From a virus: DNA of 21,232 bases. The stretch covers positions 1 through 21,232 of the IMG/VR virus record IMGVR_UViG_3300044946_000053; one strand, written 5' to 3'. Each line of letters opens with the position of its first letter. The stretch's first letter is position 1. Positions 6,547 through 21,232 of this stretch are shown here, in pieces. The notes below the pieces were generated by a model. The model made no database searches. It saw nothing but the letters and a program-made list of their open reading frames with translations, and had not been told where the DNA came from. Made by a program: the position numbers and the translations under genes.

Positions 6547-7770
6547 TTAGACTTGATCGGCCACTACACATGCCCATTCTGGACGCAACCACAAAAATCC
6601 ATACAGCACATCGAGCCTCGTGACCATCTGGTCCGTTCCAGGCACGTACGCCGTCAGCATTCTCATCGAGACCCCGTCGAACGACTCGCGGGCGACCTCG
6701 TGCACGCCTCGGGGCATTTCCAGATCAGCCGTTGCCAGCGTGACAGCCTCTGGTGCGTACGCGAAGTTCTTGCGGTAGGTCACGCTGGCCGCCAGGCCAT
6801 TCGCGGGGTTGACCGCCGCGCCATTCGCCGGGCTCACAGTCACGGTCTGGTACTGCACCGCCTGCCCACCTACGCCTGGGATCAGGGCCGGGTAGATCGG
6901 GATGCTCGTCGCGCCAACAGCCACGTTCGCAGTGACCGCGAACTGGCGCAGCTGGCCCGTCGACTGCTTGGTGACCCTGTTGACCTGGAACACGCCAGCG
7001 ATGGTGATGATGTCCCCGACATTGAGCGAGCCGGCGAGTGCGCCGACGGTCAGGTTGAGCCCGGTCTGGTTCGCGCCGGCGACGGTGGCTGAGCCTTGCG
7101 CCAGCGTCCCTGTCGTGTGCGCGATCGCGGTCTGGTCCTTCATCCAGATGAAGCCCAGGGCGTCGTACATCCGGCCAGTAACGTATTGACGGCTGATCTG
7201 GCTCGCCGGGTTCAGCAGGCCGGTGAGCGCCGCAACGACGCGGGCCTCAGTCACCGGACTGTTGACAATCTTGCGATTGGCGATCGGGGACGAGTTCAGG
7301 TCGAGCTGCGCGCCGGAGTTCAGATAGGTGCTGGCGATCGGCGAGAGGATATTGTTGTTGACGTCCTGATTCGCGACGAAATTGCAGATCCCGCCCTCTG
7401 CCCCGCCCATGATCCCGACCGCGACCGCGCCGGCGAGCACGTTGACCATCGGGGCGAGGATTCGCCGGCTGTAGTCGTCGAGGGACAGGGTTCGGTCCAC
7501 CGTCGAGAACGACACATCGACGTGCTGCTGGGTTGCCAGCACCAGGGTCGTCGACTGCTCCGCGGTGTCTTGCACGCTGAGCGCCGGCCCGGTCGTGACG
7601 GTGAAGTCGTTCGGCAGGCGGATGCGAAGGGTCGAGCCGATCTTGGCGCCGCTGACAGCGAACGATTCGTCGTATTGCATGTCCACGTTCATCAGGAAGG
7701 CGTTCGAGTTCTTCCATAGCCTTACTGCTTCGCGCGTGATCATCGAGATGGTAAGAAGACTGTTAGCCAT
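6547..7770 (-). CDS. Major capsid (coat) protein, P22 gp5-like
   Basis: 407 residues from ATG at 7770 with GGAG about 9 nt upstream. It starts MANSLLTISMITREAVRLW, followed by GSTLRIRLPNDF, VDRTLSLDDYSRRIL and NVLAGAVAVGIMGG. Near residues 235-310 GSLNVGDIITIAGVFQVN and YQTVTVSPANGAAV match the insertion domain and following strands of P22-type coat proteins (P22 coat is 430 aa). The end, LDVLYGFLWLRPEWACVVAD, is typical of the family's last strand. It forms the icosahedral shell around the scaffold encoded just upstream. Order scaffold-coat supports the call. The assignment comes from recognised motifs and order. Confidence 0.9.
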   Translation of the reverse strand: MANSLLTISMITREAVRLWKNSNAFLMNVDMQYDESFAVSGAKIGSTLRIRLPNDFTVTTGPALSVQDTAEQSTTLVLATQQHVDVSFSTVDRTLSLDDYSRRILAPMVNVLAGAVAVGIMGGAEGGICNFVANQDVNNNILSPIASTYLNSGAQLDLNSSPIANRKIVNSPVTEARVVAALTGLLNPASQISRQYVTGRMYDALGFIWMKDQTAIAHTTGTLAQGSATVAGANQTGLNLTVGALAGSLNVGDIITIAGVFQVNRVTKQSTGQLRQFAVTANVAVGATSIPIYPALIPGVGGQAVQYQTVTVSPANGAAVNPANGLAASVTYRKNFAYAPEAVTLATADLEMPRGVHEVARESFDGVSMRMLTAYVPGTDQMVTRLDVLYGFLWLRPEWACVVADQV

Positions 7771-8013: not shown

Positions 8014-8027
8014 GCGCGCTAGCGCGC
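8014..8027. other. 14-nt perfect palindrome covering the scaffold stop codon
   Basis: GCGCGCTAGCGCGC is fully self-complementary and contains the scaffold TAG stop (8019-8021) at its centre. It could fold in the mRNA or bind a dimeric protein; it may also be chance in GC-rich DNA. Confidence 0.45.
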
Positions 8028-8795
8028 CGCGCCATTCTTGGCCGCGAGTTCAGCCTCTCGCCGCCTCATCCAGGTGGCAGTGTCGAGCTTGTCGGAGCGC
8101 TCGGGGTCGGAGGCGTCGATGGCCTCGTGCGAGGTGCCACGGCTGCCAACCGGCGTGACGGGTTTCGGAGCGCGGGTCATGGGCGTGGCCCCGGTCGCCA
8201 GCTTTGTCAGTTCGATCGCCATCTTCACCGGGCTCAAGGCCATGATCCTGCTCGCCTCGTTCAAGTCCCCGCCCAGCGCGTGGATCAGCTTCGGCCCTTC
8301 CCCGGTCTCGATGGCAGCGGCCAGGAACGAGTTATACGCCGAGACTTGACTCGGATCCTTCTGATCGATGGTCTTGACCAGCTCGGCAACCCGAGTGTCA
8401 AAGTCCGGAAACTGCTGGCGGCCGGCGGCCGCTGTCTCGTTGCACGAGCGATTGAACTCGTTCTGCGCGGCGATCGCGGCAGCACGCCGGTTGACCTCCG
8501 CGTCATCAGCAGCAGCCACCGGCGGTGGCGCAGCCGGGTCTGCTGGCGTAGCCGGCGTCTTCGCCGCGGCAGCGTTCTTCGCCTCCTCTGCGCGCAGTCG
8601 CGCAGTCAGCTGCGCGATGCGGCGGTCTCGCCAGTCGGTAGGCTCGGCGACGGGGGCAGGCTCGGGCGCTGGCGAAGGCGATGGCGGCGTTGCCGGTTCT
8701 GGCGTCTGCGCCGGCTCGGGTGCCGGATCACCAGCAGGAGCGGCCAATGGCGCCGGCTTTGCCGGCTCGGGTGCTGGGGTCGGTTCTCCGGCCAT
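8019..8795 (-). CDS. Capsid scaffolding protein
   Basis: 258 residues from ATG at 8795 with GAGGA about 7 nt upstream; that site overlaps the previous gene's stop, so a longer start at 8834 is less likely. Residues 1-60 are low-complexity Pro/Glu/Ala (PAPEP repeats), a flexible acidic arm. DWRDRRIAQLTARLRAEEAKN near 60-80 is a coiled-coil helix, followed by another Ala/Pro linker. The C-terminal half is helical and ends in DTATWMRRREAELAAKNG, a short basic helix of the kind that docks scaffold to coat in P22-like phages. Length and position between portal and coat match scaffold (P22 gp8, 303 aa). It guides procapsid assembly and leaves before packaging. Sequence identity to known scaffolds is probably low; order and architecture carry the call. 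Confidence 0.82.
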   Translation of the reverse strand: MAGEPTPAPEPAKPAPLAAPAGDPAPEPAQTPEPATPPSPSPAPEPAPVAEPTDWRDRRIAQLTARLRAEEAKNAAAAKTPATPADPAAPPPVAAADDAEVNRRAAAIAAQNEFNRSCNETAAAGRQQFPDFDTRVAELVKTIDQKDPSQVSAYNSFLAAAIETGEGPKLIHALGGDLNEASRIMALSPVKMAIELTKLATGATPMTRAPKPVTPVGSRGTSHEAIDASDPERSDKLDTATWMRRREAELAAKNGAAR

Positions 8796-8805
8796 TTCTG
8801 GTTCC

Positions 8806-9123
8806 TCAATGCTGCCGTGGCGTCGCCGCGCCACGTCCTCGGACGAGGGAGTTGTCGAGCACTAGTGCATCATAGATCTGTTCGGCTTGTGAAGGGTCTA
8901 ACGATGGGTTTCCAAGCATTTGCCCGAGGATGGCCCGGGCCTGCGGCACGAGCCTCCCCCAGTTCTTCGCCACGAACCGGCTTTCCAACGCGAGCGCGTT
9001 CGCACCCGGATTTCTTTTCTTCCAGATGGCGTACCACTCGTTGTCCAGCATCATCTTGTCGTACAACTCATGGGCCATCGCCTTGGCAGTCTCAGCCAGC
9101 AGCTTATGACAGTGTGCAGGCAC
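8806..9123 (-). CDS. Small helical phage protein between portal and scaffold
   Basis: 105 residues from a GTG at 9123 with a strong GAGGAGG 7 nt upstream, which decides the non-ATG start. The sequence is helical and charged: CHKLLAETAKAMAHELYDKM, NEWYAIWKKRNPG, FVAKNWGRLVPQARAILGQML, then PSLDPSQAEQIYDALVLDNSL. This W-K-PG, F-K-W-P-AR-L and ALDNSL pattern recurs in uncharacterised proteins encoded near phage portals; I know no function. The stop overlaps the ribosome-binding site of the scaffold gene. Confidence 0.78.
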   Translation of the reverse strand: MPAHCHKLLAETAKAMAHELYDKMMLDNEWYAIWKKRNPGANALALESRFVAKNWGRLVPQARAILGQMLGNPSLDPSQAEQIYDALVLDNSLVRGRGAATPRQH

Positions 9124-9543: not shown

Positions 9544-11769
9544 TCAATGTTGTGTTGCCAGAGGCCCAATTCGCATCGTACGCAAGCGCCGAGTTGGATC
9601 GGACAGATACCACTCGCCGCTGCCGCCAAGGGCATTGCTGGCGCTAGCACCATTCGCGACTGGCGAAGCCGGTGGCGCATCGTCGTCGCTCTGGGCCGAC
9701 AGCCCAGACGAGTTCGCCTTCAGAATCGGCACGAGCGACGTTTGCAGGGCCTCGTCCACCAGTTGCCTAATGATGCTCCGCACACCCTCGTCCTCCTCTG
9801 GCAGCATGTCCGCGAGCGCGGCCATCCGGCGGGTCTCGGAGTCGTAGGCGTCAATATCCCGCATCTGGTCCTTACCCGCGAGTTTGACCGTGTCCTTCGC
9901 CACACGTTCGAGCGACTTCGCCAGCGCGGCTTGCAGCTGGGCCACTTGTTGCTGAAGTGCCTGCTCAGCCTGAGTCGGCCCCTTACCCAGCGCCATCGGC
10001 GGGACCATCCGCTTGAGCCGCACTGCGGCCTCCTGCGCCTCCTTGAAGTCCATCGCCGACAGCAGCAGGTCGCCAATCACACCAGTGAGCGCGGGGTTCT
10101 GCGTCAGAATCAGGGTCATCGCCTTGACAGTTTCTTCTCGCCTGCTGCCAAAAGCCTTCCCCGGCTGCGAGATCACATCGTACTGCCCGACACTCGGGTT
10201 GAAGATTCGGCGGATGACCTGGCCGTTGTGCGCCAGCCGTTGCTGCAGTGCCTGCCGCGCTGTCGGGTCGATCTCGACCTCGAGATCCGTCCCATCATCG
10301 GCTTGGAGCATCAGCACTCGTTTCGTATCGTAGACCTTGGGCACCAGATCGATGATCATCTTCCCCGTCAGCAGCAGCGCAGCTTCATAGGCATCTCGGA
10401 AATGGAACGTGGCGGTGTCGCCCTGATCCTGCCGCTTCGCAATCGCGTCGCCAGTCCGTTCATTCCCCTGCATCCCCATCTGGTTCTGCCACTGGCCAGA
10501 GGCCATCATCATCTGGTTGAACGCGGTTTGCATGCCGGCTTCGTAGGCCGGTGCCGCCGACGGCGGCTCGGTTCGTTGCGGGGCAGGGATCTCGGCCCCG
10601 TCGTCATTCGTGTGGTTGTATGGCAGCACCGCATGGTTCTGCGTATTGGCAGTGTTCCAATACGTCTCATACTCCTCAATAGCCTGCGCCGGCGCAACCC
10701 AGGGCGTCTTGCCCTGCAACGCCACGAACTCGACCTGCGAGCTCGCGTTGTAGTTGAACATACGCTGGGCATCCTTAATCGCCCGAGTGTGGCCCTTGCG
10801 GTCAAGCACGCCCTCGATCCGAGTCTCTTCGCCCAGCACCGGCACCAGCGGGATGTACTTCCCCATCCACTCGGTCTCATCCACGACCTCGTCCCCGACG
10901 ATCAGTTTCCACTCAATCACATCCTCCCACACGTCGCGGATGCGGGTCAGCGGGTCATCGATGATCCCCTTAACTACCTCCTTCGGCGCGAGCGATTCGC
11001 GCAGCAGCTTGCGCTGACCCGAGGCCGGGTCCATGAAGCTCAGCAGCCGATCATGGCGCGGGACCTTGCGCCAGTACTCACACACCCGAACATGATCCCG
11101 AGTGACCCAGTCGGAGTCCGGACTGCCGACACCCAGCGGCGACAGCGAGGCCATGTTCTTGAGCTTCGGATAGGCTTCCTCGAACTCGTCTCGAGGCACG
11201 AGATCGAACACAAACGCGAAGTTCATGTCGGATTTGTCCCGCTCGCGGGCGTCCGGGTCACAGTAGACGGTGAGCGGGTCCTCGATCCGCCGGATGAAGA
11301 CCTCTTGGTCGAAGGAGTTCTCGTCCACGTAGTCGGTGTGGAGCCGCCACCAGCCGATGCCACCGTAGACGCAGAACTCTGCGGCGGTGTCATAGGCGGC
11401 TTGGGCGTTTGAGCGGTACTCGATATGGCGAACAACACCTTCCCAGAGCGTCGCGGCCTCCGCAGTGGCGCCGTTGCCAACGGCGCGGATGCCAACGGCA
11501 CTCTTGTTCTGCTTGAACTCGTTGGTGATTTGCAAATTGTGCTGCCGGACAACGTTCATCGTCAGGCACGGCCTCGTATCAACGTCCCTCGCCCGGCGGA
11601 TCGCGTTCGGCCACTGATACCCGTTGTCGCTGTCGCCATGGGCGAATTTCAGATCATTCAGAAATCGCTCGCGAGCTATCGACTCCCACTCCAGACACCG
11701 CTGGAAGCGCTTCCGCGCCTCGTCGATCAGTGGGTCTCCAGTGCTTGCAGGAGTCGGGTCAGCGCTCAC
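9544..11769 (-). CDS. Portal protein, P22 gp1-like
   Basis: 741 residues from a GTG at 11769 whose codon overlaps the end of the preceding small gene; a TTG at 11814 is possible but less likely. Length agrees with P22 portal (725 aa). Signatures include RFQRCLEWESIARERFLNDL near the N-terminus, RPCLTMNVVRQHNLQITNEF, WEGVVRHIEYRSNAQAAYDT, IEDPLTVYCDPDARERDKSD and NYNASSQVEFVALQGKTPW. The C-terminal part has a helix-rich stretch (ALQQQVAQLQAALAKSLERV), fitting the helical barrel of P22-type portals. Twelve copies would form the DNA channel at one capsid vertex and bind TerL during packaging and gp4 afterwards. Position after TerL supports this. Confidence 0.92.
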   Translation of the reverse strand: MSADPTPASTGDPLIDEARKRFQRCLEWESIARERFLNDLKFAHGDSDNGYQWPNAIRRARDVDTRPCLTMNVVRQHNLQITNEFKQNKSAVGIRAVGNGATAEAATLWEGVVRHIEYRSNAQAAYDTAAEFCVYGGIGWWRLHTDYVDENSFDQEVFIRRIEDPLTVYCDPDARERDKSDMNFAFVFDLVPRDEFEEAYPKLKNMASLSPLGVGSPDSDWVTRDHVRVCEYWRKVPRHDRLLSFMDPASGQRKLLRESLAPKEVVKGIIDDPLTRIRDVWEDVIEWKLIVGDEVVDETEWMGKYIPLVPVLGEETRIEGVLDRKGHTRAIKDAQRMFNYNASSQVEFVALQGKTPWVAPAQAIEEYETYWNTANTQNHAVLPYNHTNDDGAEIPAPQRTEPPSAAPAYEAGMQTAFNQMMMASGQWQNQMGMQGNERTGDAIAKRQDQGDTATFHFRDAYEAALLLTGKMIIDLVPKVYDTKRVLMLQADDGTDLEVEIDPTARQALQQRLAHNGQVIRRIFNPSVGQYDVISQPGKAFGSRREETVKAMTLILTQNPALTGVIGDLLLSAMDFKEAQEAAVRLKRMVPPMALGKGPTQAEQALQQQVAQLQAALAKSLERVAKDTVKLAGKDQMRDIDAYDSETRRMAALADMLPEEDEGVRSIIRQLVDEALQTSLVPILKANSSGLSAQSDDDAPPASPVANGASASNALGGSGEWYLSDPTRRLRTMRIGPLATQH

Positions 11770-11950
11770 GTACGATACCCGCTCGAATATCAACGTTCCC
11801 CAACGCACGTACAAATCGCTTCAGCGCATCACGCGCATGGTGCAGCTGGTTAAATGAGCGACTACTCTGCGCGATCAGCCGCATGTTATAAGAGAAGATA
11901 TGCCAGGTGAACTTACCCTGCTTCTCATGAATTGTTGCGAACGAGGCCAT
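11759..11950 (-). CDS. 63-aa protein between TerL and portal, possibly DUF1508-like
   Basis: ATG at 11950, 6 nt after the terL stop codon begins; no Shine-Dalgarno seen. The stop overlaps the portal GTG (GTGAGCGCTGA), so the gene fits as a coupled bridge between terL and portal. The core GKFTWHIFSYNMRLIAQSSR followed by ARDALKRFVRAL resembles the small DUF1508/YegP alpha-beta unit (G-F-W-hydrophobic, N, IA-S, then a helix with A...A). The resemblance is from memory and moderate. Basic residues are frequent. The role is unknown; a packaging-accessory role is only a guess from position. Confidence 0.55.
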   Translation of the reverse strand: MASFATIHEKQGKFTWHIFSYNMRLIAQSSRSFNQLHHARDALKRFVRALGNVDIRAGIVRER

Positions 11951-11956
11951 CTGGCG

Positions 11957-13279
11957 TCAGCCCATCCACCCGGTACCGGGGGCGTCGTCCATCAACACGT
12001 TGCGGACGCGCTTGAGCTTGTCTGCCAGCTTGCTCTGAGCCTTCGGTGGTTTGATGTACTGCCCCATCGTCATGAACGCATCAGCGCCATTTGAGTTCTC
12101 ATCATGCAGCGGTTCTGCCGACAGCTGCTCGTCGTCATCCCCCTCATTCTCCACATCGTACTTATACCTGCGAAGCCGGTTAAGGCCCTCCTCGCACTGA
12201 GTCTCGTCGAAATAACATGATGGGAAGATGATCCGAGCAGCATTGATCGCGTTCGCCTTCTTGTTCGTTCGTTTCACGATCTGCACACGAAAGCCCATCC
12301 CCTGCGCGATCTGTTTCACCGAGCGTTTTGCTACCAACAGCTTATTCTCCGCGTCGTGTGGCATCACAGTGTTGCCATAGACGTAGGGACGGTTCTGACA
12401 GTATTTCAAATAATGCGTAATGTCCTCGCCGGAGTTCTCATAGTACTCCAGAACCCGCCACTGCATCGCAACTCGCTGCGCGAACCAGATACTCGTCATG
12501 TCGCGCCGGCCGAGGTCCCAGAACGTGTCAACGGGGGTTTCGTGATCCCAGGGCACGCTGCAGATCCGACCGGAAGCCGCTGCCGCCCGTAGTTCCTTCG
12601 CGAACACGACGCCAGAGAGCATCTGGAGGCATTGACCCTCCCAGATGTTCAGATACGAGTCATAATCCCGCTTTCGCTCTTCCTCCATCTCCCCATACAT
12701 GGGGCTATCTTTGAACCAGGGATTGTCGCGCCAGGTCGTCTTAACAACGAACGAGTTTGGCGACGGCTCTTTCACAAATCGCTTGTAGGTGTAGGCAGTC
12801 TCGAGTTCTGGATTGAACGTGATCCAGATCTCGCTGCCGGGCTTCCGAATGGTCGGGATCAAGATCCCCCAGCTCTTCTTCGACACCGTCTCAGCTTCTT
12901 CCACCCAACAGAAGTCAACGCCCTCGTAGCTCTTAATCTTCGTCGTGTTATTGCGAATGCCCTCGAACGAGAATGTCGTGCCATTCAGGCCGATGATCTT
13001 CCCGACCTGGATCTCGTAGAAGTGCGAGAGGCCAAGCTTGTCGATCTGATCGGTCAGCAGTCTATGAACTGACTCGGCGATCGAGTTCTGGAGTTCCCGA
13101 GCGCAGAGCACGCGAATTGGCCTCTGCGCACCGATCAGTAGCAGTGCGCGAGCACACGCCCAGCTTCTCCCGCCGCCTCGCCCTCCCCAGAGGACTTTCG
13201 TCCGTTTTGGCTGGAAGAGGCAGTGGAACGGGGCAGGGAACTCAACGTCGATGGTAGGGGTGGCAGTTGCTAAGGGCAT
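11957..13279 (-). CDS. Terminase large subunit (packaging ATPase and nuclease)
   Basis: 440 residues from ATG at 13279. Residues 32-39 GGRGGGRS form the Walker A loop, with Arg in place of the usual Lys. VDFCWVEEAE at 121-130 is Walker B with catalytic Glu, and WITFNPE near 152-158 is the coupling motif. The nuclease part has D255 in WDLGRRD, D309 in PHDAENK and D400 in SNGADAF, a metal-binding triad of the RNase H-like fold. The layout matches the PBSX/SPP1-type Terminase_3 group. It drives DNA into the procapsid through the portal and cuts the concatemer. No small terminase gene is recognisable nearby. No Shine-Dalgarno precedes the start, and an intrinsic terminator lies 43 nt upstream. 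Confidence 0.95.
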   Translation of the reverse strand: MPLATATPTIDVEFPAPFHCLFQPKRTKVLWGGRGGGRSWACARALLLIGAQRPIRVLCARELQNSIAESVHRLLTDQIDKLGLSHFYEIQVGKIIGLNGTTFSFEGIRNNTTKIKSYEGVDFCWVEEAETVSKKSWGILIPTIRKPGSEIWITFNPELETAYTYKRFVKEPSPNSFVVKTTWRDNPWFKDSPMYGEMEEERKRDYDSYLNIWEGQCLQMLSGVVFAKELRAAAASGRICSVPWDHETPVDTFWDLGRRDMTSIWFAQRVAMQWRVLEYYENSGEDITHYLKYCQNRPYVYGNTVMPHDAENKLLVAKRSVKQIAQGMGFRVQIVKRTNKKANAINAARIIFPSCYFDETQCEEGLNRLRRYKYDVENEGDDDEQLSAEPLHDENSNGADAFMTMGQYIKPPKAQSKLADKLKRVRNVLMDDAPGTGWMG

Positions 13280-13308
13280 TGTTTGATGGTCAAGGATGGC
13301 TACAGGGC

Positions 13309-13321
13309 GCCGCTTCGCGGC
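13309..13321. other. GC-rich hairpin next to the terminator T-tract
   Basis: GCCGCTTCGCGGC (minus strand GCCGCGAAGCGGC) is a 5-bp stem with a 3-nt loop and a GCGAAGC core. It follows the T-run of the terminator directly on the minus strand and lies in the short leader of terL. Confidence 0.5.
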
Positions 13322-13357
13322 AAAAAAGAGGCGGACCCCAGGGGCGAAGTCCGCCTC
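13322..13357 (-). terminator. Intrinsic (Rho-independent) terminator
   Basis: On the minus strand a perfect 9-bp stem GAGGCGGAC / GTCCGCCTC with a 12-nt loop is followed at once by TTTTTT. It lies about 43 nt after the stop of the exported fibre gene at 13400 and about 43 nt before the terL start, so it ends the accessory operon. The plus strand lacks a T-tract after the stem. Confidence 0.9.
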
Positions 13358-13370
13358 AGTTTCACCATGA

Positions 13371-13392
13371 GCACGGCCGCTTCGCGGCGTGC
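13371..13392. other. Second GC-rich hairpin just after the fibre gene stop
   Basis: GCAC plus GCCGC pair with GCGGC plus GTGC around a 3-nt TTC loop, with one bulged G. The hairpin core again contains GCGAAGC on the minus strand. It lies 8 nt downstream of the stop at 13400, before the terminator, and may protect the mRNA end. Confidence 0.5.
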
Positions 13393-13399
13393 CGTGCCT

Positions 13400-14692
13400 T
13401 CACATCACCACATCTGACTTGACAGTGATCACACCGCTGCCGCCACCGCCATTCAGCCCAGAGATCGAGCCAATGGTCGCATCGGTCGTCGTCGCAGTCA
13501 CCGTGCAAGCAGTAGTCGAGCAGGTGCCAGCGGTCGGGCTCGTCCAGGTCGTCGGGGTGGTGCCACTGATATTGAGCTTGAACGTCCCAGTGGTCGGGAT
13601 CGCCACCACCGGGGTCGTCCCACGCATCTGCACCGGCAGCGCGAACGGGCACACTTGGCTGCCCGAGGCGACGTTCCCGCACATCAACGGCGTAGCCGCG
13701 CCGCTCGCCGGTTCGTTCAACTGCCAGAAGAACCGTTCCGAGTCCCGGAGCTCATCCGCCAGCGAGCGATTTTCAAACTGACTCGGTCCGGGGTTCGAGT
13801 TCGTGCCAGTCACGATCTCGAGTTGATCCCCGACCTCGGCGAAGCCATCAGTCACGCCAGACGTGACCGTCGCCGGAGTGAAGCAGAGCTCGACCCCGAC
13901 CTCGGTCGCAGTCGCAGGAATGGCAACTGCTGGGGTGAACTGCCGCGTCCAGACCGCCGTCAATCCGAGGTTCCAGGTCGCAGCAGGGCTCGTCCCACCG
14001 GCGATGTTCGTCCACGCCGGCGTGATCGCGGGTGAGGCCGTCAGGGTCCCCAGCCCCTGGTCGGTGCCAGTCCCAGTGATCACATACGCACTCACAGCAC
14101 CGTTTAGAGAGGTCAGCGCCGCCAGCGGCTGCAATAACACCGAGAACACCACGTTCTTGCCCTGGAGTTCGGTCGCTCTGGTCGTTTCGACCTCTTGGAT
14201 CTCACACACCGGCTGCAGCAGCGCGCCGGAGTTCCGCCAGAGTTTCACGCTCTGCGTGAAGCCAGGGGGCGGCGCCGGTGAGGCCGTGATAATCTGGGCT
14301 TCGCCAGCGCCAGAGCCCACGTTCGTGTCCACGAACCAGCGGTCCGCGGCGAACTGCAGCGCAGTGATCGTGGTCGTCCCGCCGACGATGGCAGCAGTTC
14401 CTTGCTGGTTAACATTGTGCGCGCCGTTGACCAGGAAGTTCCTGGGCGTCGCCGGTTGCCCGACAGCAGTCAGCAGCTGCGAGACGGTGACCGCCTCGCT
14501 CGCGGGGTTCAGCCCCTGCGTCAGGTTCGTATCCACGGGCACAGTTTCATTCCCTGTCAGTGGGATCGTACCCGGATACTGGCTACCGCCCGCAACCGGG
14601 ACGCCATTCGTGTACAACCCAGCGGCCAGCGCCGCCGTCGTCACGCTTGCCACTGCAAGTCCGGCAAGCGCGAGCAGTTTCATGCTTCGCAT
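13400..14692 (-). CDS. Exported tail-fibre-like protein with carbohydrate-binding-like domain
   Basis: 430 residues from ATG at 14692 with AGGAG about 8 nt upstream; a second ATG (14683) is also possible. MRSMKLLALAGLAVASVTTAALAA is a signal peptide with ALA/AG cleavage. The mature protein has NFLVNGAHNVNQQGTAAI and ALQFAADRWFVDTNVGSGAG, the N-G...N-Q-G...ADRW pattern familiar from C-terminal receptor- or sugar-binding domains of phage fibres. FWQLNEPAS and MCGNVASGSQVCPFALPVQM follow, and the end is Thr/Gly-rich (GTCSTTACTVTATTTDAT). There are six Cys in the mature part, two pairs close together. It is the last gene before the terminator. Role as exported adhesin or virion protein is inferred. 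Confidence 0.82.
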   Translation of the reverse strand: MRSMKLLALAGLAVASVTTAALAAGLYTNGVPVAGGSQYPGTIPLTGNETVPVDTNLTQGLNPASEAVTVSQLLTAVGQPATPRNFLVNGAHNVNQQGTAAIVGGTTTITALQFAADRWFVDTNVGSGAGEAQIITASPAPPPGFTQSVKLWRNSGALLQPVCEIQEVETTRATELQGKNVVFSVLLQPLAALTSLNGAVSAYVITGTGTDQGLGTLTASPAITPAWTNIAGGTSPAATWNLGLTAVWTRQFTPAVAIPATATEVGVELCFTPATVTSGVTDGFAEVGDQLEIVTGTNSNPGPSQFENRSLADELRDSERFFWQLNEPASGAATPLMCGNVASGSQVCPFALPVQMRGTTPVVAIPTTGTFKLNISGTTPTTWTSPTAGTCSTTACTVTATTTDATIGSISGLNGGGGSGVITVKSDVVM

Positions 14693-14723
14693 TTCTCGTC
14701 TCCTAGCCGCCGCGCTTGCATTT

Positions 14724-14753
14724 CCAGTTCGATGGGCAGCATAATCGAACTGG
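14724..14753. other. Intergenic 10-bp perfect inverted repeat
   Basis: CCAGTTCGAT and ATCGAACTGG are perfectly complementary around a 10-nt loop, between the small gene ending at 14757 and the exported fibre gene. No T-tract follows on the minus strand, so it is more likely an RNA-processing or stability hairpin than a terminator. A 20-codon ORF (ATG at 14742, stop at 14680) begins within the loop. Confidence 0.6.
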
Positions 14754-14756
14754 CGT

Positions 14757-14993
14757 TTAGATCATCGCAATTCCGAGATCACACGTCACAGCGGAAGGGA
14801 AGTCCGTCAACAGCGACGGCGGAATGCCGATCTGATCGACAGTCATAACCACTTGGGACCACATCGCAATCACTTGACAGTTGCCGTCCCCCGGCTCGAA
14901 ATACGCCACGAACGGAGCGGAGCCAAGTTGCGTCGCCATCGCTGCGACGGCGGGTTGGAAGACCGAATAGGCCGTGTATGTCAGTTGCAGCAT
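14757..14993 (-). CDS. Small phage protein of unknown function
   Basis: 78 residues from ATG at 14993, or 82 from the ATG at 15005. GAGG abuts the first ATG, so the second is preferred although its spacing (about 13 nt) is long. The sequence MLQLTYTAYSVFQPAVAAMA, GSAPFVAYFEPGDGNCQVIAMW and SLLTDFPSAVTCDLG is mixed hydrophobic without a signal peptide and with two Cys. I do not recognise a family. It lies 12-25 nt after the repetitive exported fibre gene and before a strong hairpin. Confidence 0.6.
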   Translation of the reverse strand: MLQLTYTAYSVFQPAVAAMATQLGSAPFVAYFEPGDGNCQVIAMWSQVVMTVDQIGIPPSLLTDFPSAVTCDLGIAMI

Positions 14994-15017
14994 TGCTAGT
15001 TCCATTCCTCGTTTGAG

Positions 15018-16727
15018 TTAATACTGAAACCCTGTAATCTCCACATCCAGCGTCGGCGCATTCGTTACGAACGTCGAGTTGGCTGTGACGCAGATCGCCA
15101 GGGTCCCATTCCCAGCGATTTCCCAGCCATCCGGTATCGGGACCTGAAATCGATCGAACGCTGCCAGCGTAGCAGCAGCCCCACTCACTGCTTGGAAGGC
15201 GATCGGAGTCGACGTTACCACGCACGTCCCACCAGTGTTGATCCTAAGCGAAAACGTAGTGATCTGTGCTGTCGCTGTCGCAGTGTTTCCCCGGGTCGCA
15301 AACGTCAGCGAAGTCATCCGGAACGTCTTGCCAGCTGTGATGACGAAACTCGTCCCAGTTGTCGTCGCACCAGTACCACTTGCCTGTGTCAGTGTAAGCA
15401 GGGTCTCAACTGTCGTCGCGCCGGCGGCAGCGCCAGTTGCATAGTAATTGACCTCGGTCCGGCCGGAGTTTATCACGTCCTGTGTCGGGAAGAAGTTCGA
15501 GGCCTGAGTACCCTTAGCCTGTGCCGCGACGGCAGTCCCGCCGACCTGCGAGACATTGTCTTGGGCAATCGTGTTCGGGGACGATGCCACGACAACCGCC
15601 GGCTGGCTCGTCGTAGCAGCAGTGACGGCGGGCGCCACCCCAGCAGTATTGACCCCGTCCGTCAGCTCGGAGAACCACCCGTTCGCGGCGGTGCCATGCG
15701 TACCCTGGTTCGCCGTCACAGTTCCGCTTACTGTAGGCGTATTCGTCACAAACACGTTCGCGCCCAGGTAATTCCCCGTCGTCGGCGCGGTGCCATACGC
15801 CGTGGGCACGCCAAGACTCGTCGTGTTCCACTGCGTCACGTTGGTCGAAGCATTGCTCGGCGGGACTGTCGTCACCGCGTCAGCAGACGTAAGCGCCCGA
15901 ATGCTCCTCGGATCGACAATCGCTCCGCTGACAGCGATCCCCACAGGCCACGCTGCCGAGGCACTGCCCGCCGTCCCCTGCGTTGCAGTCGTCGTCCCAC
16001 TCGTGACCCACGGAGAAGTCGACTGTGTTACAGCAAGTGTCGAGTTCGAGATCGAGAACGACGAGGGGAAATTGCTAATGATCCGAGGGTCAATCGCGAC
16101 GCCGCCAACGACGATATCGACAGGCCAGGGCGAGCTAGTGCTAGCAGCAGCCCCTTGAGCAGTGGTCACGACATCAGCACTTGTCAGCGCCCTGATCTGG
16201 TACTTGCTTGAGCTAACACCGCCCGCGAGGGTCGCAAGGTTCCCGCCGCTTTCCAGCGCCAGCAGCGACGTGTTCAGATTCGTGCCGGCGTTCGCCGTGA
16301 CGCTCCCTGTCACCGAGTCGACCCACGGCGAGGTCCCTTGCGTAGCAGCAACGGTGCCGGACACCAGCTGAGTCGCCGGGAAGTTCGAGACGCTTACGCT
16401 ACCGCTGCTCACGCTTACGCTGCCGCTGATGATCCTCGGATCAACAACAACCCCGCCAACGACAATGTCAACAGGCCAAGCGGCCGAGGCCACCGCAGGG
16501 GTTCCCTGCGCAACAGTTCCCCCGCCGCTTCCCCCACCACCAACAGTGCAAAGCGTCCCGGTTGTATCTTGAGTCAATATCGAAAGCTGCCCTGGGACAT
16601 ACGCTTGCGGCAGCGTACCGCAGGTACTCACCACAATGGCCGAGTCAGCAGCGTGGGCGGTGCCCGCCAGCGACGCGAACGCCAGCGAAGCGAGACTGGC
16701 CAGCGCGAGGCACTGGCGCTTAGCCAT
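15018..16727 (-). CDS. Exported repetitive fibre-like protein
   Basis: 569 residues. The ATG at 16727 overlaps the upstream stop by 8 nt (ATGGCTAA). MAKRQCLALASLASLAFASLAGTAHAA is a signal peptide with AHA/AD cleavage. After a Gly-rich linker (62-70), a unit with WPVDIVVGG and DPRIIS occurs three times (about 84-100, 201-217, 260-276), with TQGTSPWV and IRALTSAD units between. Residues 298-330 (TQWNTTSLGVPTAYGTAPT) and 345-380 (GTAANGWFSELTDGVNTAGV) match modules I know from uncultured-phage fibre-like proteins. The C-terminal domain (470-569) has FRMTSLTFATRGNTATA and PDGWEIAGNGTLAICV, beta-sandwich-like. Four Cys remain in the mature protein. Role: head fibre, tail fibre or secreted adhesin (inferred). 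Confidence 0.82.
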   Translation of the reverse strand: MAKRQCLALASLASLAFASLAGTAHAADSAIVVSTCGTLPQAYVPGQLSILTQDTTGTLCTVGGGGSGGGTVAQGTPAVASAAWPVDIVVGGVVVDPRIISGSVSVSSGSVSVSNFPATQLVSGTVAATQGTSPWVDSVTGSVTANAGTNLNTSLLALESGGNLATLAGGVSSSKYQIRALTSADVVTTAQGAAASTSSPWPVDIVVGGVAIDPRIISNFPSSFSISNSTLAVTQSTSPWVTSGTTTATQGTAGSASAAWPVGIAVSGAIVDPRSIRALTSADAVTTVPPSNASTNVTQWNTTSLGVPTAYGTAPTTGNYLGANVFVTNTPTVSGTVTANQGTHGTAANGWFSELTDGVNTAGVAPAVTAATTSQPAVVVASSPNTIAQDNVSQVGGTAVAAQAKGTQASNFFPTQDVINSGRTEVNYYATGAAAGATTVETLLTLTQASGTGATTTGTSFVITAGKTFRMTSLTFATRGNTATATAQITTFSLRINTGGTCVVTSTPIAFQAVSGAAATLAAFDRFQVPIPDGWEIAGNGTLAICVTANSTFVTNAPTLDVEITGFQY

Positions 16728-17055
16728 ACTTGACGACAAATGGGTGCCCCACACTCGCCCCCGCCAGATGCACCGAGTCATTGAACACCGGAGAGGGGAA
16801 GATCATTTTCCACTCGCGGAGCGGGTCGAGTGGCAAGGCACCGAGTCCAGGAGCACCGGCTTCGCCAGCGGGCAGGGTGAAGTTGATCCAGAGCTGCTCC
16901 GTCGTCGACAGGTTGAACACCAGCAGCATCGCACGGTTGTACTGCTGTGGGAGTACCTGCTGATCAGCAAAGCCCCCAGATGCCAGGGCGCCAGAGGCGT
17001 CGTTCGCGCTGATACAGCAGCTCCCGCGGTTGGCAAGGGCGCCGAGTTCACTCAC
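16720..17055 (-). CDS. Small phage protein upstream of the repetitive fibre
   Basis: 111 residues from GTG at 17055, overlapping the upstream stop (GTGA). The core QQYNRAMLLVFNLSTTEQLW, INFTLPAGEAGAPGLGALPL and DPLREWKMIFPSPVFND followed by GHPFVVKYG looks like a small beta-sandwich virion protein. I have seen similar short proteins beside phage fibre genes but know no role. It has a CC pair near residue 13. The end overlaps the next start by 8 nt, so both are probably made together. Confidence 0.7.
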   Translation of the reverse strand: MSELGALANRGSCCISANDASGALASGGFADQQVLPQQYNRAMLLVFNLSTTEQLWINFTLPAGEAGAPGLGALPLDPLREWKMIFPSPVFNDSVHLAGASVGHPFVVKYG

Positions 17056-17633
17056 TTCGCAGCCAATATGCTCTGCAACGACCCATCTCCAGTCGGGCGC
17101 AGCGATCCAGCAAACCCAGCGATTTTCTCCTCCCGCGCGAGCACCGCTGCTTCCCGCGCGGACACTTTCGCCTCGCGGTCTGCCAGCGCGGCTTCGCTCG
17201 CGCGCAGCGCAGTCTCTCGAAGCGCCAGCGCCGAGTCCCTGATCTTCGTCGCGGCGGCCAGGTCCGCTTGCGCTTTCGCCGAGCTTTTCGCAAAATCCGC
17301 CGCCTTCGCCGCCAGCTCAGCCTCTTTCGTCGCCAGGGTGCGGCGCGAAGCGCCCAGCTCGACGTTCGCGGCCTCCACTTCGCCGACGCTGTCCGACAGC
17401 TTGGCCTCGCCGGCCGCTAGTGCGGCCTCGCGTTTGTCAAGCCCTGAGCTTGCAGCAGCAGCGACCTCGGCCGCGCCCTCGGCCTTGGCTTGCGCCTCGC
17501 CGGCGCTTTTCGCCGCCGCACGAAGCTCGCTCGCGGCTTGGCCCAGGGCCTTCAGATCCGTCAGCGCAGCAAGGCCCTTGACCAGGGCTTCCAGCGTTCC
17601 AGCAGTCTGGGCCGCGCCTGCTAGCGAGATCAT
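17052..17633 (-). CDS. Ala-rich coiled-coil protein
   Basis: 193 residues from ATG at 17633 with GAAGGAG 8 nt upstream; it overlaps the previous stop as ATGA. After a short N-terminal helix (TLEALVKGLAALTDLKALGQ) almost the whole protein is one long coiled coil rich in Ala, Glu, Lys and Arg, with near-repeats such as KREAALAAGEAKL and REAKVSAREAAVLAREEKIA. The C-terminus (TGDGSLQSILAAK) is short. Such rods occur as phage head or tail accessory proteins, but none is recognised by name. Overlaps on both sides place it in one translation unit with 17630-17908 and 16720-17055. Confidence 0.72.
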   Translation of the reverse strand: MISLAGAAQTAGTLEALVKGLAALTDLKALGQAASELRAAAKSAGEAQAKAEGAAEVAAAASSGLDKREAALAAGEAKLSDSVGEVEAANVELGASRRTLATKEAELAAKAADFAKSSAKAQADLAAATKIRDSALALRETALRASEAALADREAKVSAREAAVLAREEKIAGFAGSLRPTGDGSLQSILAAK

Positions 17634-17908
17634 CTCACAAACTCCTTCACCGTAATCGTCGTGCTTGCGCTCACGCCGTAGAATCTCGTCCCCGCCGGCA
17701 GCGGATGGGCAAGACCCTGCCCCCAGTCCAGCATCACCAGCTCATCGGCGTAAAGCATCACAAACTTCGTTCGGTTGGTGAACTTCTTGCTCGTGTCGCC
17801 GAGCTCGAGCGTCTGCTCCCGCAGCGCCGGGGCGGCGCCGGCTTGCACTGGCGAGCCGTCGAAATCCCTAGCCAGCGAGGCGAACTCGGTCAGCCAAACG
17901 CGTGCCAT
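17630..17908 (-). CDS. Small phage head or tail protein
   Basis: 92 residues from ATG at 17908 with AAGGG 8 nt upstream; a GTG 9 nt earlier is too close to that site. MARVWLTEFASLARDFDGSP leads to QTLELGDTSKKFTNRTKFVM, LYADELVMLDWG and LPAGTRFYGVSASTTITV. The R-V-L-Y-A-D...LPAGT-Y-GV pattern is one I recognise from short virion-associated proteins of uncharacterised podoviruses. It probably forms a small beta domain. No signal peptide and no Cys. Confidence 0.72.
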   Translation of the reverse strand: MARVWLTEFASLARDFDGSPVQAGAAPALREQTLELGDTSKKFTNRTKFVMLYADELVMLDWGQGLAHPLPAGTRFYGVSASTTITVKEFVR

Positions 17909-17920
17909 CGGCCTCACCCT

Positions 17921-18595
17921 TCACAGTATAACATTGCAATCCACCGTCGCGGTAAGTGCCGACAACGACGAGTCCGTCGTAATCACCCGCCATGTTCTCG
18001 GCACCACTGCATTCACGAGCACAGCAGTCGCGCTACTGGCAGCAGTCACGCCCGGGTACACCGTTAGTACGTCAGTGCCAGTCCCAGTGAGGGCCGTACT
18101 TGCCAACAGGGTGTAATAAATCCCGTTCGTGTTGTCCTTCCCCTGGATCGTGAACGTTACGCTCGTGCCAGTCAGCGCCGTGATGTTGACGACACAGACG
18201 AGGCCGCGCCCGACATAATTCGTCTGGTCGAGGCCGTTCACGCTGGCGGTACCTGGCACAACGACGTTGCCGTAGTCTGAGTTAGACCACGGTTGACAGT
18301 ACTGGGTCTGCACCCCCGTCGGACTGGCTGTCGCCGGCGTCGTCACGAGGAAACATGGCTGGACCGGCACTTGCGCGGACGCAAGCGAGGGCGCGAGTCC
18401 AAGCACGAGCGCGAGCACTAGTACGAAATACGGCAGTTTTGCTGGGGCGGAAGCTGCCAACGCTGAGGGGCAATCCGACCGAGTTACCCCGGCCTTGAGT
18501 ACACCAGTGCAAGGCCCTGGCCGCGCCGCTACGCGCTGTTGTCCCCACCCACGCAGGACGTTCATGACCGTCTGCGTCCAGTTCGATCTCATCAT
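17921..18595 (-). CDS. Exported small beta-sandwich phage protein with a long N-terminal extension
   Basis: 224 residues from ATG at 18595, overlapping the upstream stop (ATGA) with AAGG about 8 nt upstream. The hydrophobic core KLPYFVLVLALVLGLAPSLASAQ lies at about residues 53-75, with cleavage at ASA/QV. About 50 residues rich in Arg, Pro and Cys precede it, which is unusually long for a signal-peptide n-region. The mature domain has GLVCVVNITALTGTSVTFTI, YYTLLASTALTGTGTDVLTV and VPRTWRVITT, an Ig-like sandwich common in short phage structural proteins. There are four Cys in the mature part. No better in-frame start was found nearer the signal. Confidence 0.75.
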   Translation of the reverse strand: MMRSNWTQTVMNVLRGWGQQRVAARPGPCTGVLKAGVTRSDCPSALAASAPAKLPYFVLVLALVLGLAPSLASAQVPVQPCFLVTTPATASPTGVQTQYCQPWSNSDYGNVVVPGTASVNGLDQTNYVGRGLVCVVNITALTGTSVTFTIQGKDNTNGIYYTLLASTALTGTGTDVLTVYPGVTAASSATAVLVNAVVPRTWRVITTDSSLSALTATVDCNVIL

Positions 18596-18867
18596 TCGCC
18601 AGCCTTCAGATACTCAACCGCCCCGCGCAAGGCGCTGCCAGCACCGTCCGGCGAGACGCCCTGGCGACCATCTGCTGCCGGCGGGGTGATCCTCGGCGGG
18701 TTCTTCGTGAACACCTGCGAGGATCGATACTCGCCAGTGGCCTCATTGCACGAACTCGTCGTCGTGATGTACCCGTTGTCGATCTTCCGAGTCGAGATCG
18801 AGTGGCTCTCACCAGCGCCCAGCGGCTTCGCCGCGAGCGAGGCCGTGTCATTCAAGCGTTTTGCCAT
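18592..18867 (-). CDS. Small phage protein with RKIDNGY and LRGAVEYLK motifs
   Basis: 91 residues from ATG at 18867 with GGAGGTG about 6 nt upstream, which rules out the longer reading from 18900. The protein MAKRLNDTASLAAKPLGAGE continues with SISTRKIDNGYITTTSSCNE, ATGEYRSSQVFT and a Pro-rich region. It ends GSALRGAVEYLKAGE. The S-RKIDNGY...C-E-TGEYRS pattern is known to me from uncharacterised proteins of P22-like phages. Its last motif is shared with the next gene upstream (18919-19179). Confidence 0.75.
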   Translation of the reverse strand: MAKRLNDTASLAAKPLGAGESHSISTRKIDNGYITTTSSCNEATGEYRSSQVFTKNPPRITPPAADGRQGVSPDGAGSALRGAVEYLKAGE

Positions 18868-18918
18868 TACCCACCTCCGCTTCGCGATTACTGGCAGCAA
18901 AGTCGCCGAAGGCGGCGC

Positions 18919-19179
18919 CTACTTCGAGTACTTGCCCGTGGGCTTCATCCCATGCAACGGCACGTGCCGAATGTGCGCGGTCGAGCCCTGGTGCGGGCCG
19001 AGATCATCATACCGCTCGGGATGCTGTTTTTTCAACTCGTCGACCGCCCCTCGCAAGCCCTGCGTGGGCGAGCCCTCCAGCGCCCCGTGCATATCAGCCT
19101 TTTTCTCGTTCCCGACGTGGTCGGCCTTTGGCCCGCCGGCAGCCGCCGGCGCTTCGCGGAGGGGTTTTCCATCAGTCAT
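18919..19179 (-). CDS. Small charged phage protein with LRGAVDELK motif
   Basis: 86 residues from ATG at 19179 with AGGAGA about 8 nt upstream. The N-terminal half is disordered-looking (EAPAAAGGPKADHVGNEKKA). GSPTQGLRGAVDELKKQHPE at residues 37-56 is helical, and the C-terminus STAHIRHVPLHGMKPTGKYS is basic and His-rich. The family is not recognised by name; similar short tails occur in podovirus hypothetical proteins. No signal peptide. Confidence 0.68.
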   Translation of the reverse strand: MTDGKPLREAPAAAGGPKADHVGNEKKADMHGALEGSPTQGLRGAVDELKKQHPERYDDLGPHQGSTAHIRHVPLHGMKPTGKYSK

Positions 19180-19203
19180 CTTTCAGTTCTCCTGCTTTCC
19201 AGT

Positions 19204-19229
19204 TGACCGCCGCGAAGCGGCGGGGGTCA
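19204..19229. other. Strong GC hairpin between the nuclease and the next small gene
   Basis: CCGCCGCGAAGCGGCGG (19207-19223) is a 7-bp stem with a 3-nt GAA loop; outer TGAC and GTCA can also pair around bulged G residues. It fills most of the 60-nt gap. No T-tract follows on the minus strand, so an RNA-stability or processing role is more likely than termination. Confidence 0.55.
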
Positions 19230-19239
19230 TAGGTTGACA

Positions 19240-19776
19240 CTATAGGCCAAGGGTTTCCGGCGCCAACGGTGCGGCGGTGACTCGTGGACGAATGGCGCAA
19301 GATGGCGCCAGTGGCGCCTTCGGTAGCCACTGCAGCACCACTCTCCCGCCAGCAGTCGCGATATCGACTGCCTTCTGCCAGTCGCCAGTGATCACGGCCC
19401 CGGAGTCAAGGGCCTCCGGCACCAGCACCTTGCACACCACCAGCCCGAAAACGCGCTTGCCACTGGCCTTCGCCACAACCGGCCGATACAGCTTCTCGAT
19501 CTGCAAATGCCCCTCGAGGATCCAGGTGTACTTGGCTTCCAGCACCAGCAGTCCACCAGCCACTGCTAGTAGCAGATCAGGCTGGCACCAGCCAGCCCCC
19601 CTTCGATCCTTAAACTCGAACCACTGCCCATGGACTGCTGTCGGCAGGGCCTTCGCCAGCGCTCGCTCATACCGCAAGCCCTGAGCCTTGGCCCCGCGGC
19701 TTCGCCGTTTGCCAGCAAACATGGGCGGCGGCTGGCACGTCCTCGCCCACACCAGCCCATCAATGACCCTGGTCAT
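19240..19776 (-). CDS. PD-(D/E)XK nuclease-like protein
   Basis: 178 residues from ATG at 19776, 22 nt after the fibre stop; Shine-Dalgarno weak. A basic N-terminus (AGKRRSRGAKAQGLRYERAL, with E37) precedes QPDLLLAVAGGLLVLEAKYT, which supplies D67 and E80-x-K82, the core of the PD-(D/E)XK fold. HLQIEKLYRPVV and RVFGLVVCKV then form the following helix and strand. The layout E...PD...ExK is that of resolvase-like and VRR-NUC-like nucleases. In this position it could trim DNA ends during packaging or degrade competing DNA; both are guesses. The C-terminal 30 residues are Pro/Ala-rich. Catalytic residues are all present, so it may be active. Confidence 0.72.
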   Translation of the reverse strand: MTRVIDGLVWARTCQPPPMFAGKRRSRGAKAQGLRYERALAKALPTAVHGQWFEFKDRRGAGWCQPDLLLAVAGGLLVLEAKYTWILEGHLQIEKLYRPVVAKASGKRVFGLVVCKVLVPEALDSGAVITGDWQKAVDIATAGGRVVLQWLPKAPLAPSCAIRPRVTAAPLAPETLGL

Positions 19777-19798
19777 AGCTTCGACAGCGCTGTTGCTG

Positions 19799-21232
19799 TC
19801 ACAGCTTCATCTCGAAATTCACCGCCGTCGTCGGCTGGATGATCGACAGCGGTGTGCTCGACCCGCCAAGGTGCACACCAGTCGTGGACGAACTGGTGGC
19901 CGTCGGGGTGTAGATAGTGCCGGGCAAGTTCCCGCCCGCGCCGTCGTTACTGCCAGTGCTCAAATTATACGTATGCGTGTGGCCCGGGTCCGGCAGCACA
20001 TAGTCCGGCAAATTCGCCTGGGCGATCGTAGAGGTCTGGGAGCCAAAGGACGAGCCCAACACGCGGGCCGACAGCCCCGCGCCAGTCCCCGCCGAGCCAA
20101 CAACGCGGCTTTGCATCAGCGGCAGGTTGATTGTCTTGTTCGCGGCGAAGTCAGCAGCAGCGCTCGCGCCCCGGCCACCACTCACCGGACAGTTCGCATT
20201 CGCGCAGTCAGTCCACAGCAGGGCGAACAGCGCCGAGGTGCTCGCGGACGCCAGCGTCGTCGCCCCACTCGCAGCATTCCCGATGGTCCCGTCGTTCATC
20301 AGCACCCAGCCAACGTCCGCAGTCAGCTTCAGCGTCATCTTGACATCGCCGGTCGACCAGATCCCCTGCCCAGTGTTGAACGTGCTCACGCTCGGGTTCG
20401 GATAAGTACCAGCGAGATCGCCAGCAGCGGCCCCGGTGATCGAGTTGCCACTCGCCTGCGTCAGCGACAGCACCCGCCAGACGCCAGAGGGCTCTGCCGC
20501 CACCAGCGCGGTCGTGCCCGCTGCCGTGGTGATGTTGCTCCCGCCCGCCGGCAACTGCAAGTTCGTGCCCTGCGTCAGCGTCAGCACCCCCGTGAACTCG
20601 AGCCCGATGATCGTGCCGGCTGGGCAGCTCGCGTCAAATGCGGTGATCGTGGTCGTGCCAGTCACCTGCACGTACGGATTCCCCAGCGCACAGATATTCG
20701 TCGTCCCCGCGCTCGCGATCGTCGCAAACCCGCTCTGCCACCCGCCGTTCAGCAGCTGATACTCGGTCCCATCCCAGGTCGCCGAGTACGCCGAGCCGAG
20801 CACCAGATCACCCGCAACGAGTGGCACCAGGCCACTGCTCGCCCGCTTTAGCACCGAGAACACACCAGTCCCGCTCGTGTTCAACGTCACCGCTGCTGTG
20901 TTCGTGAACCCGGCCACGAAGTTGAGCTGGTTCCCAACCGTCAGCGCGAAGCCCACCGGCACCGTGCTAGTCACCACCTGGGCATTCGCCGCACCGACAG
21001 TCGAGCCGGGGAAGGAGAAGAACGTGCCAGCGCTGCCACTGCCCAGCAGCGCGATCGGGTCTCCCGTCAGCTGGTCCCACACCAGGTCCGAGAATTGGTC
21101 AAATACCTGCTGCCGGTACTGCCCGCTGCCATACACGATCGCGCGGCCAGCAGCATCAAGGCTGACACACGGCGAGGCATTCGGCGTGACCTGGAGCGGG
21201 TCGAGCCAGGTCGTCTTCGCGATCAGGGTGTT
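19799..21232 (-). CDS. Tail fibre with collar-like C-terminal domain (N-terminus outside window)
   Basis: The frame is open to the right window edge: 477 visible residues, with a GTG at 21136 as an internal codon rather than the start. The visible N-terminal part has TTWLDPLQVTPNASPCVSLD and YRQQVFDQFSDLVWDQLTGD. AAAGDLAGTYPNPSV is a linker motif typical of phage fibres. Near the C-terminus GWVLMNDGTIG...TSALFALLW...KTINLPLMQSRVVG matches the phage collar domain, and GHTHTY followed by a distal end STPLSIIQPTTAVNFEM is usual for collar fibres. The H-T-H resembles metal-binding HxH motifs of fibre tips. Five Cys are visible. Whether it also has a signal peptide lies outside the window. Confidence 0.85.
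   Translation of the reverse strand, partial: NTLIAKTTWLDPLQVTPNASPCVSLDAAGRAIVYGSGQYRQQVFDQFSDLVWDQLTGDPIALLGSGSAGTFFSFPGSTVGAANAQVVTSTVPVGFALTVGNQLNFVAGFTNTAAVTLNTSGTGVFSVLKRASSGLVPLVAGDLVLGSAYSATWDGTEYQLLNGGWQSGFATIASAGTTNICALGNPYVQVTGTTTITAFDASCPAGTIIGLEFTGVLTLTQGTNLQLPAGGSNITTAAGTTALVAAEPSGVWRVLSLTQASGNSITGAAAGDLAGTYPNPSVSTFNTGQGIWSTGDVKMTLKLTADVGWVLMNDGTIGNAASGATTLASASTSALFALLWTDCANANCPVSGGRGASAAADFAANKTINLPLMQSRVVGSAGTGAGLSARVLGSSFGSQTSTIAQANLPDYVLPDPGHTHTYNLSTGSNDGAGGNLPGTIYTPTATSSSTTGVHLGGSSTPLSIIQPTTAVNFEMKL

Follow-up and report, generated by a model that had tools for sequence, protein, structure and literature searches.

In phage lambda (tR'/Q) and in the late control of P22, a terminator is located ahead of the packaging and head genes, and in plasmid RK2 the operator OB has a palindromic core of 13 bp. 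In the part of the literature that we draw on, OB is given as a 16-bp sequence recognized by KorB (PMC11790492), and the sections used on mycobacteriophage L5 describe its stoperators as asymmetric sites of about 13 bp, more than twenty in number, which are found in short intergenic gaps, are bound by a monomeric repressor and follow transcription in their orientation (PMC9283540). A literature search conducted at a level above full texts met no description of a dispersed palindromic element such as the one presented here, and a search of N15 centromeres as an analogue was not useful.

The sequence analysed, which we call the window, is the whole of virus record IMGVR_UViG_3300044946_000053 (21,232 nt), a 21-kb record of a kind that is often fragmentary. 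The window is a fragment of a P22-like phage, and every gene assigned to it through PHROGs and Pfam scans is on the minus strand, including an HNH gene (phrog_99) and a match to a head-tail adaptor (phrog_637); no terS was recognized by these scans. The genes around the site of interest are:

6547..7770, minus strand: P22-like coat protein (PF11651, E 1.3e-29)
8019-8834: presumed scaffold, so called by its place alone
9544..11814, minus strand: P22-like portal, the gene after terL in the operon (PF16510, E 1.7e-148)
11957..13279, minus strand: terL, terminase large subunit, 440 aa (PF04466, E 4.2e-38; phrog_3717)
13400..14692, minus strand: upstream ORF of 430 aa, presumed virion fibre/decoration protein, its function assigned by eye

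For the ten ORFs upstream of terL (13400-21136) PHROGs gave no matches, nor did Pfam for the seven of them that were scanned. By eye they look like low-complexity virion proteins of fibre or collar type, several with a start resembling a signal peptide, and the product of 13400-14692 has a relative of 37% identity in locus L009. This resemblance to virion fibre genes makes the site before terL an operon boundary. The first-pass annotation had taken it for a control point between accessory and head genes, and it does look like a control point, but by eye the genes upstream look fibre/collar-like and not accessory. Hydrophobic stretches similar to signal peptides were also seen by eye near the N-termini of the presumed virion proteins encoded at 13400-14692, 15018-16781 and 3143-4147.

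The elements found between the upstream gene and terL, followed by one related copy elsewhere in the window, are:

13370..13393, minus strand: hairpin A, a 10-bp stem interrupted by one bulge (RNAfold), containing GCCGCGAAGCGGC
13322..13357, minus strand: intrinsic terminator, 13-bp stem (13357-13328) followed by T6 (13327-13322)
13309..13321, minus strand: hairpin C, GCCGC-GAA-GCGGC, 5 bp with a GAA loop, exact, adjoining the T tract
13295..13307, plus strand: flank of the palindrome, GATGGCTACAGGG (RTGG...AGGG), pointing away from terL
13282..13294: operator-like palindrome of 13 bp, CTTGA-CCA-TCAAA (CTTGACCATCAAA) on the minus strand and TTTGATGGTCAAG on the plus strand
19209..19221, minus strand: hairpin GCCGCTTCGCGGC in a third exact copy, located in a different gap between genes

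On the minus strand, the terminator stem has 13 pairs, 8 of them G-C, with a loop of 4, and its energy is -22.9 kcal/mol alone and -31.0 kcal/mol with the A-tract paired into the U-tract. When a strict criterion was used (at least 12 bp, at least 8 G-C and at least 6 T), this was the sole site in the window, and none of 100 dinucleotide shuffles produced one, in agreement with the earlier claim of a strong intrinsic terminator before terL. A laxer consensus scan of positions 11000-16000 found 2 terminators against 3.6 expected, which is not above chance, so that only the quality of this terminator is unusual. For the folding of the 120-nt region z is -3.55, a stability reached by 1 of 200 shuffles. 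On the plus strand the stem has no T tract, and therefore the terminator is directional, towards terL. The element thus has the GC-rich stable hairpin followed by a U tract that defines an intrinsic terminator, being like rho-independent terminators in its GC-rich stem, its T6 and its direction, and unlike them in the two flanking hairpins that share GCCGCGAAGCGGC, of which hairpin C adjoins the T tract.

Hairpin C is exactly as it had been described, and hairpin A, placed previously at 13371-13392, is present with slightly wider limits (13393-13370), the stop codon of the upstream gene being 6 nt ahead of it. There are three exact copies of GCCGCTTCGCGGC in the window (at 13309, 13376 and 19209), all of them intergenic, with 1241 of 20827 positions being non-coding according to our own gene list. 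One strand of these copies reads CGCGAAGCG and includes GCGAAGC, which is a very stable DNA mini-hairpin. Rfam gave no match at gathering thresholds, and a search for the same terminator stem elsewhere found a single match, on a phage contig without visible kinship (L094), which was judged convergent.

The gap to terL is as short as had been claimed, with the ATG at 13279, 42 nt from the T tract, and the absence of a visible promoter was also borne out, since a search of 11000-16000 yielded no promoter of the sigma-70 type. The missing Shine-Dalgarno sequence of terL was confirmed too, but it is not special to the window, given that 15 of 52 terL starts in the clade have one, in comparison with 48 of 56 coat starts. 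In the 35 loci having all three genes, a Shine-Dalgarno is found at 10 terL, 12 portal and 33 coat starts. This pattern, in which terL and portal mostly lack the sequence and coat has it, suggests a translational tuning of copy number.

For the comparison with relatives, 79 loci were collected through their portal protein, and terL was located upstream in most of them. From these a set of 50 loci was defined, which includes the window, after removal of 10 near-duplicates and of loci where terL runs off the contig, is too near its edge or is less than 45% identical to that of the window; a larger table of 59 loci still contained duplicates. Terminator-like sites (-10 kcal/mol or lower) within 300 nt of terL were found in 7 of the 50 loci and in 14 of 268 control windows, and on these numbers the terminator as a control element of the whole clade was rejected as the main reading. 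Strong terminators (-20 kcal/mol or lower) within the same distance are present in 4 of the 50 (L021, L033, L065 and the window), with unrelated sequences. A strong hairpin (z < -2, with 12 shuffles each) is found within 110 nt upstream of terL in 18 of the 50, mostly without a T tract. A terminator or hairpin therefore turns up again in loci where terL is preceded by fibre-like genes, without being universal. Of 6 annotated records examined, 5 have a preceding gene that overlaps the start of terL, the start in MW202691 being ambiguous. A tiny basic ORF (MKKPHKMTMKEFEHSA...) was seen by eye between hairpin and terL in L033, L035, L046, L054 and L024, and was not seen in the window.

The leader had been regarded as empty, but its last 15 nt hold the palindrome, which recurs before terL in relatives. 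It ends 2 nt before the ATG, has one arm mismatch and a perfect core of 11 bp (13283-13293), and its flank reads GATGG on the plus strand. When leaders were placed side by side, a short palindrome close to terL was seen in many relatives, and TTGACCATCAA is common to the palindrome of the window and to L022, L054 and L065. The pattern TTTG-N4-6-CAAA occurs 26 times near terL, near-duplicates included, against 1.7 expected. The element was then defined as an AT-rich palindrome of the form 5+N3+5, flanked by RTG[GT] and located within -80 to +40 of terL. Perfect palindromes with the flank were found at terL in 15 of the 50 loci versus 8 of 1915 control windows; with up to one mismatch the numbers were 26 of 50, window included, versus 91 of 1915, and some of these 26, such as L035 and L076, look like chance. 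The orientation seen in the window, with a flank that points only away from terL, is that of 21 of the 26; in 3 the flank points only in the opposite direction, and in 2 it points both ways. In the other 24 loci the element is not found near terL even when one mismatch is allowed.

Perfect 5+N3+5 palindromes of any composition are present at terL in 25 of 50 loci, and the same count gave 4 for a spacer of 2, 10 for a spacer of 4, 14 for spacers of 1 and of 5, and 15 for a spacer of 7; GC-rich hairpins account for several of the 25, including the entry of the window, which is hairpin C. In the window the one-mismatch rule is satisfied at 9 places, and these lax matches, together with the arm mismatch, make its copy not significant alone, in such a way that its membership is based on its position and its identity with relatives; no second clear copy was found in the 21 kb. 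As RNA the palindrome has no stable fold (0.0 kcal/mol), which favours recognition as DNA.

A portal scan of bacterial genomes gave five loci (Dyella, Rhodanobacter, Hyphomicrobiales, Methylotenera and Beijerinckiaceae), two of them without a terL match. In one, L160, TTTGATGGACAAA is located around 120 nt upstream of terL and was judged to be there by chance, and the remaining two with terL had no TTTGN5CAAA. When viral contigs were scanned for the full motif, 50 stretches matched, a number that by rough estimate is not above chance for that collection; 3 of these are on L022, L031 and L086, contigs already represented among the loci.

Copies of the palindrome are dispersed in related genomes. 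The pattern TTTGANNNTCAAA was found in 10 of 30 whole records, with 7 copies in G007, and the reversed control pattern in 1 of 30 (G025). When all 5+N(0-8)+5 palindromes in the 15 longer records were ranked blindly, the palindrome class came first in 8 (G007, G008, G017, G022, G018, G025, G009 and G021) and tied second in G015, with p values for those nine records from 1.9e-6 to 1e-14, uncorrected for roughly 9000 arm-spacer types. No such palindrome was among the top five in G006, G011 and G012, and G001 and G016 had only weak candidates, with 2 copies. The ranking of G020 (L184-L186) is dominated by REP-like GC-rich palindromes, with 25 copies of GCGGC-N3-GCCGC and 21 of GCCGC-N2-GCGGC, which is unusual among the 15 records.

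The half-sites differ between phages: TTTGA in G007, G008, G017 and G022, TTTGC in G018, TTTGG in G015, GTTTG-N5 in G025, ATTGA in G009 and ATTAA in G021. Each set was collected by the commonest form of its genome, so the uniformity of half-sites within a genome is partly by construction, and mixed forms are found in G018, G022 and G025. From phage to phage, many of the sites, though not all, vary symmetrically in the outer and fifth pairs. An RTG[GT] flank is present within two bases on one side in 39 of 45 copies from 10 genomes, versus 8.5% of 20000 random positions, the flank rule being derived from 27 seed sites that overlap the 45-copy set; in the genomes that gave no seed (G016, G021 and G025) 8 of 11 sites have it. 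The four palindrome copies of G025 (L168-L170) share a longer common flank, CAAAC-RTGNCNNCAGGGYTAA, than those of other genomes.

The relatives have 2-7 copies per genome. Many of these are in short gaps near stop or start codons, and several are inside ORFs predicted by a simple gene caller, two of these coding sites (G017 48025 and G018 26095) being probably chance. Of the 10 genomes, all except G007 and G008 have one copy at terL, which in G022 is found only with one mismatch. In all 8 genomes that have both such sites and an early DUF3987 gene, a site is located 8-2763 nt beyond the 3' end of that gene, within 700 nt in 6 of them, in a count made without a random control and leaving off two coding-looking sites and one extra site of G018. 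The palindrome tends to mark boundaries, both from fibre genes to head operon and at the end of the early operon.

A protein able to bind these sites was sought, and no binder was established. A family of small early proteins of about 65-90 aa (L169 9629-9892, homologues L197-L215), with the motif RHxxIYDEDWEYL...IGVSxxIRxxxH, is present in 14 of 15 records, the exception being G008, whose early region is partly missing. In its structural model (pLDDT 78, pTM 0.48) an extended N-terminal stretch precedes two helices, an arrangement that would fit a ribbon-helix-helix monomer; the family is a candidate binder, as a lead only. Five of these proteins had no Pfam match over the cut-off (best DUF2239, E 0.0017), the best PHROGs match had an E of 0.17, and in the PDB the best values were 1.5 by sequence and 4.1 by fold. 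Compared by eye in 14 records, the residues of the predicted beta-strand did not sort with the half-sites. No tyrosine integrase was found in the 15 records, and the search for a T7-type polymerase was uninformative because its own control gave no signal.

OB differs in sequence from the phage palindrome. The likeness to KorB/OB, within what our source covers, is that of sites at several places with one global regulator. Unlike KorB, the ParB_N domain of the relatives is fused to a DNA methylase and is also present in records without the palindrome, and a ParB/KorB-like binder was rejected on these grounds. The methylase is of the N6_N4 type (L145 3882-5492, L148 17134-18546 and L155 15921-17282); matches to the fusion protein, one of them weak, were obtained in 15 of 31 related records, and in all three ParB_N proteins scanned the methylase domain was present without any further DNA-binding domain from Pfam.

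Several explanations can be weighed for this locus. The first-pass annotation had made the head genes dependent on readthrough or antitermination at the terminator, in a Q-like switch without any promoter in the leader. The strong terminator, the lack of sigma-70-type promoters and the location of all assigned genes on one strand would agree with it, but the Q families PF06530 and PF03589 have no match in any of the 15 records, window included (records that may be incomplete, the window being a 21-kb fragment), strong terminators are present in just 4 of the 50 loci, and the leader is filled by a recurrent element. Unlike in lambda and P22, moreover, the terminator of the window stands between presumed fibre genes and terL. 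Dependence on antitermination of the Q type is thus not supported, and we consider such a switch unlikely; the earlier observation is confirmed and its interpretation is partly supported. Also improbable in our opinion is that the terminator is an ordinary leaky one that tunes stoichiometry, like T7 TE, which is leaky and follows the capsid gene, with the palindrome having no role. Few copies of TerL are needed, and its gene, like that of portal, mostly lacks a Shine-Dalgarno sequence, as this explanation would expect. The same terminator, however, also precedes the gene of the abundant coat protein, which would make attenuation costly, and the enrichment of the palindrome is left unexplained.

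The palindrome with its RTGG flank could instead be a promoter specific for the phage, used by the host polymerase in modified form or by a sigma factor or polymerase of phage origin. The many sites in gaps before genes, the genome-specific versions and the lack of a sigma-70 promoter before terL would speak for this. By eye, however, the flank runs mostly along transcription in G007 and G008 and in the opposite direction at terL, which a simple directed promoter fails to explain, and we hold this explanation to be quite improbable. Very unlikely, finally, is a site for packaging, recombination or partition (pac/cos or centromere-like) near terL: the copy at terL in most of the genomes and the lack of a recognized terS in the window agree with it, but the copies of each genome are several, many are far from terL, and some are at operon ends.

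The explanation that we prefer, to which we give about an even chance, is that the fibre operon ends at the terminator and that a dispersed operator-like element controls the terL-portal-coat operon. Since the palindrome tends to mark boundaries, terminator and operator are proposed to form together the boundary before terL, which would separate two late transcription units. The terminator at 13357-13322 and its neighbouring hairpins would end the transcripts of the upstream fibre genes, and the 42-nt leader would carry one copy of the dispersed element, the 13-bp palindrome with its one-sided RTGG flank. The lack of an RNA fold and the often symmetric change of the half-sites make it resemble the site of a phage-specific dimeric protein; such a protein, presumably encoded by the phage and with a specificity differing between phages, would recognize the palindrome and set from the leader the timing of terL-portal-scaffold-coat transcription. 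It could do so in two modes, either at a promoter of non-consensus type within the leader or on the RNA polymerase that crosses the boundary.

To the extent that our source describes the L5 stoperators (PMC9283540), the element resembles them as a site of around 13 bp whose copies are spread over short gaps between the genes of a single genome. It is unlike them in that its core is palindromic and only the flank is asymmetric, in the terL copy facing opposite to most sites of G007 and G008, and in that no tyrosine integrase was found in the 15 records. As to number, the relatives have 2-7 copies, many intergenic and several inside predicted ORFs, and the window has one candidate, next to the more than twenty sites of L5.

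A more general proposal, which we make tentatively and to which we give less than an even chance, is that a P22-like clade without detectable tyrosine integrase carries an undescribed dispersed operator system, a 13-bp palindrome with a constant RTGG flank of which one copy is usually found ahead of terL, and in which the whole set of half-sites (TTTGA, TTTGC, TTTGG, ATTGA, ATTAA) switches together, with a co-evolving regulator, possibly the small early protein, acting at operon boundaries. If this is true, the genome-specific palindrome set would offer a simple way to search uncultured P22-like phages for their late regulator, and the palindromes at operon boundaries would let their transcription units be predicted. 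It would also mean that the switching of specificity by a whole operator set, best known from repressor immunity, takes place in phages without a recognized integrase.
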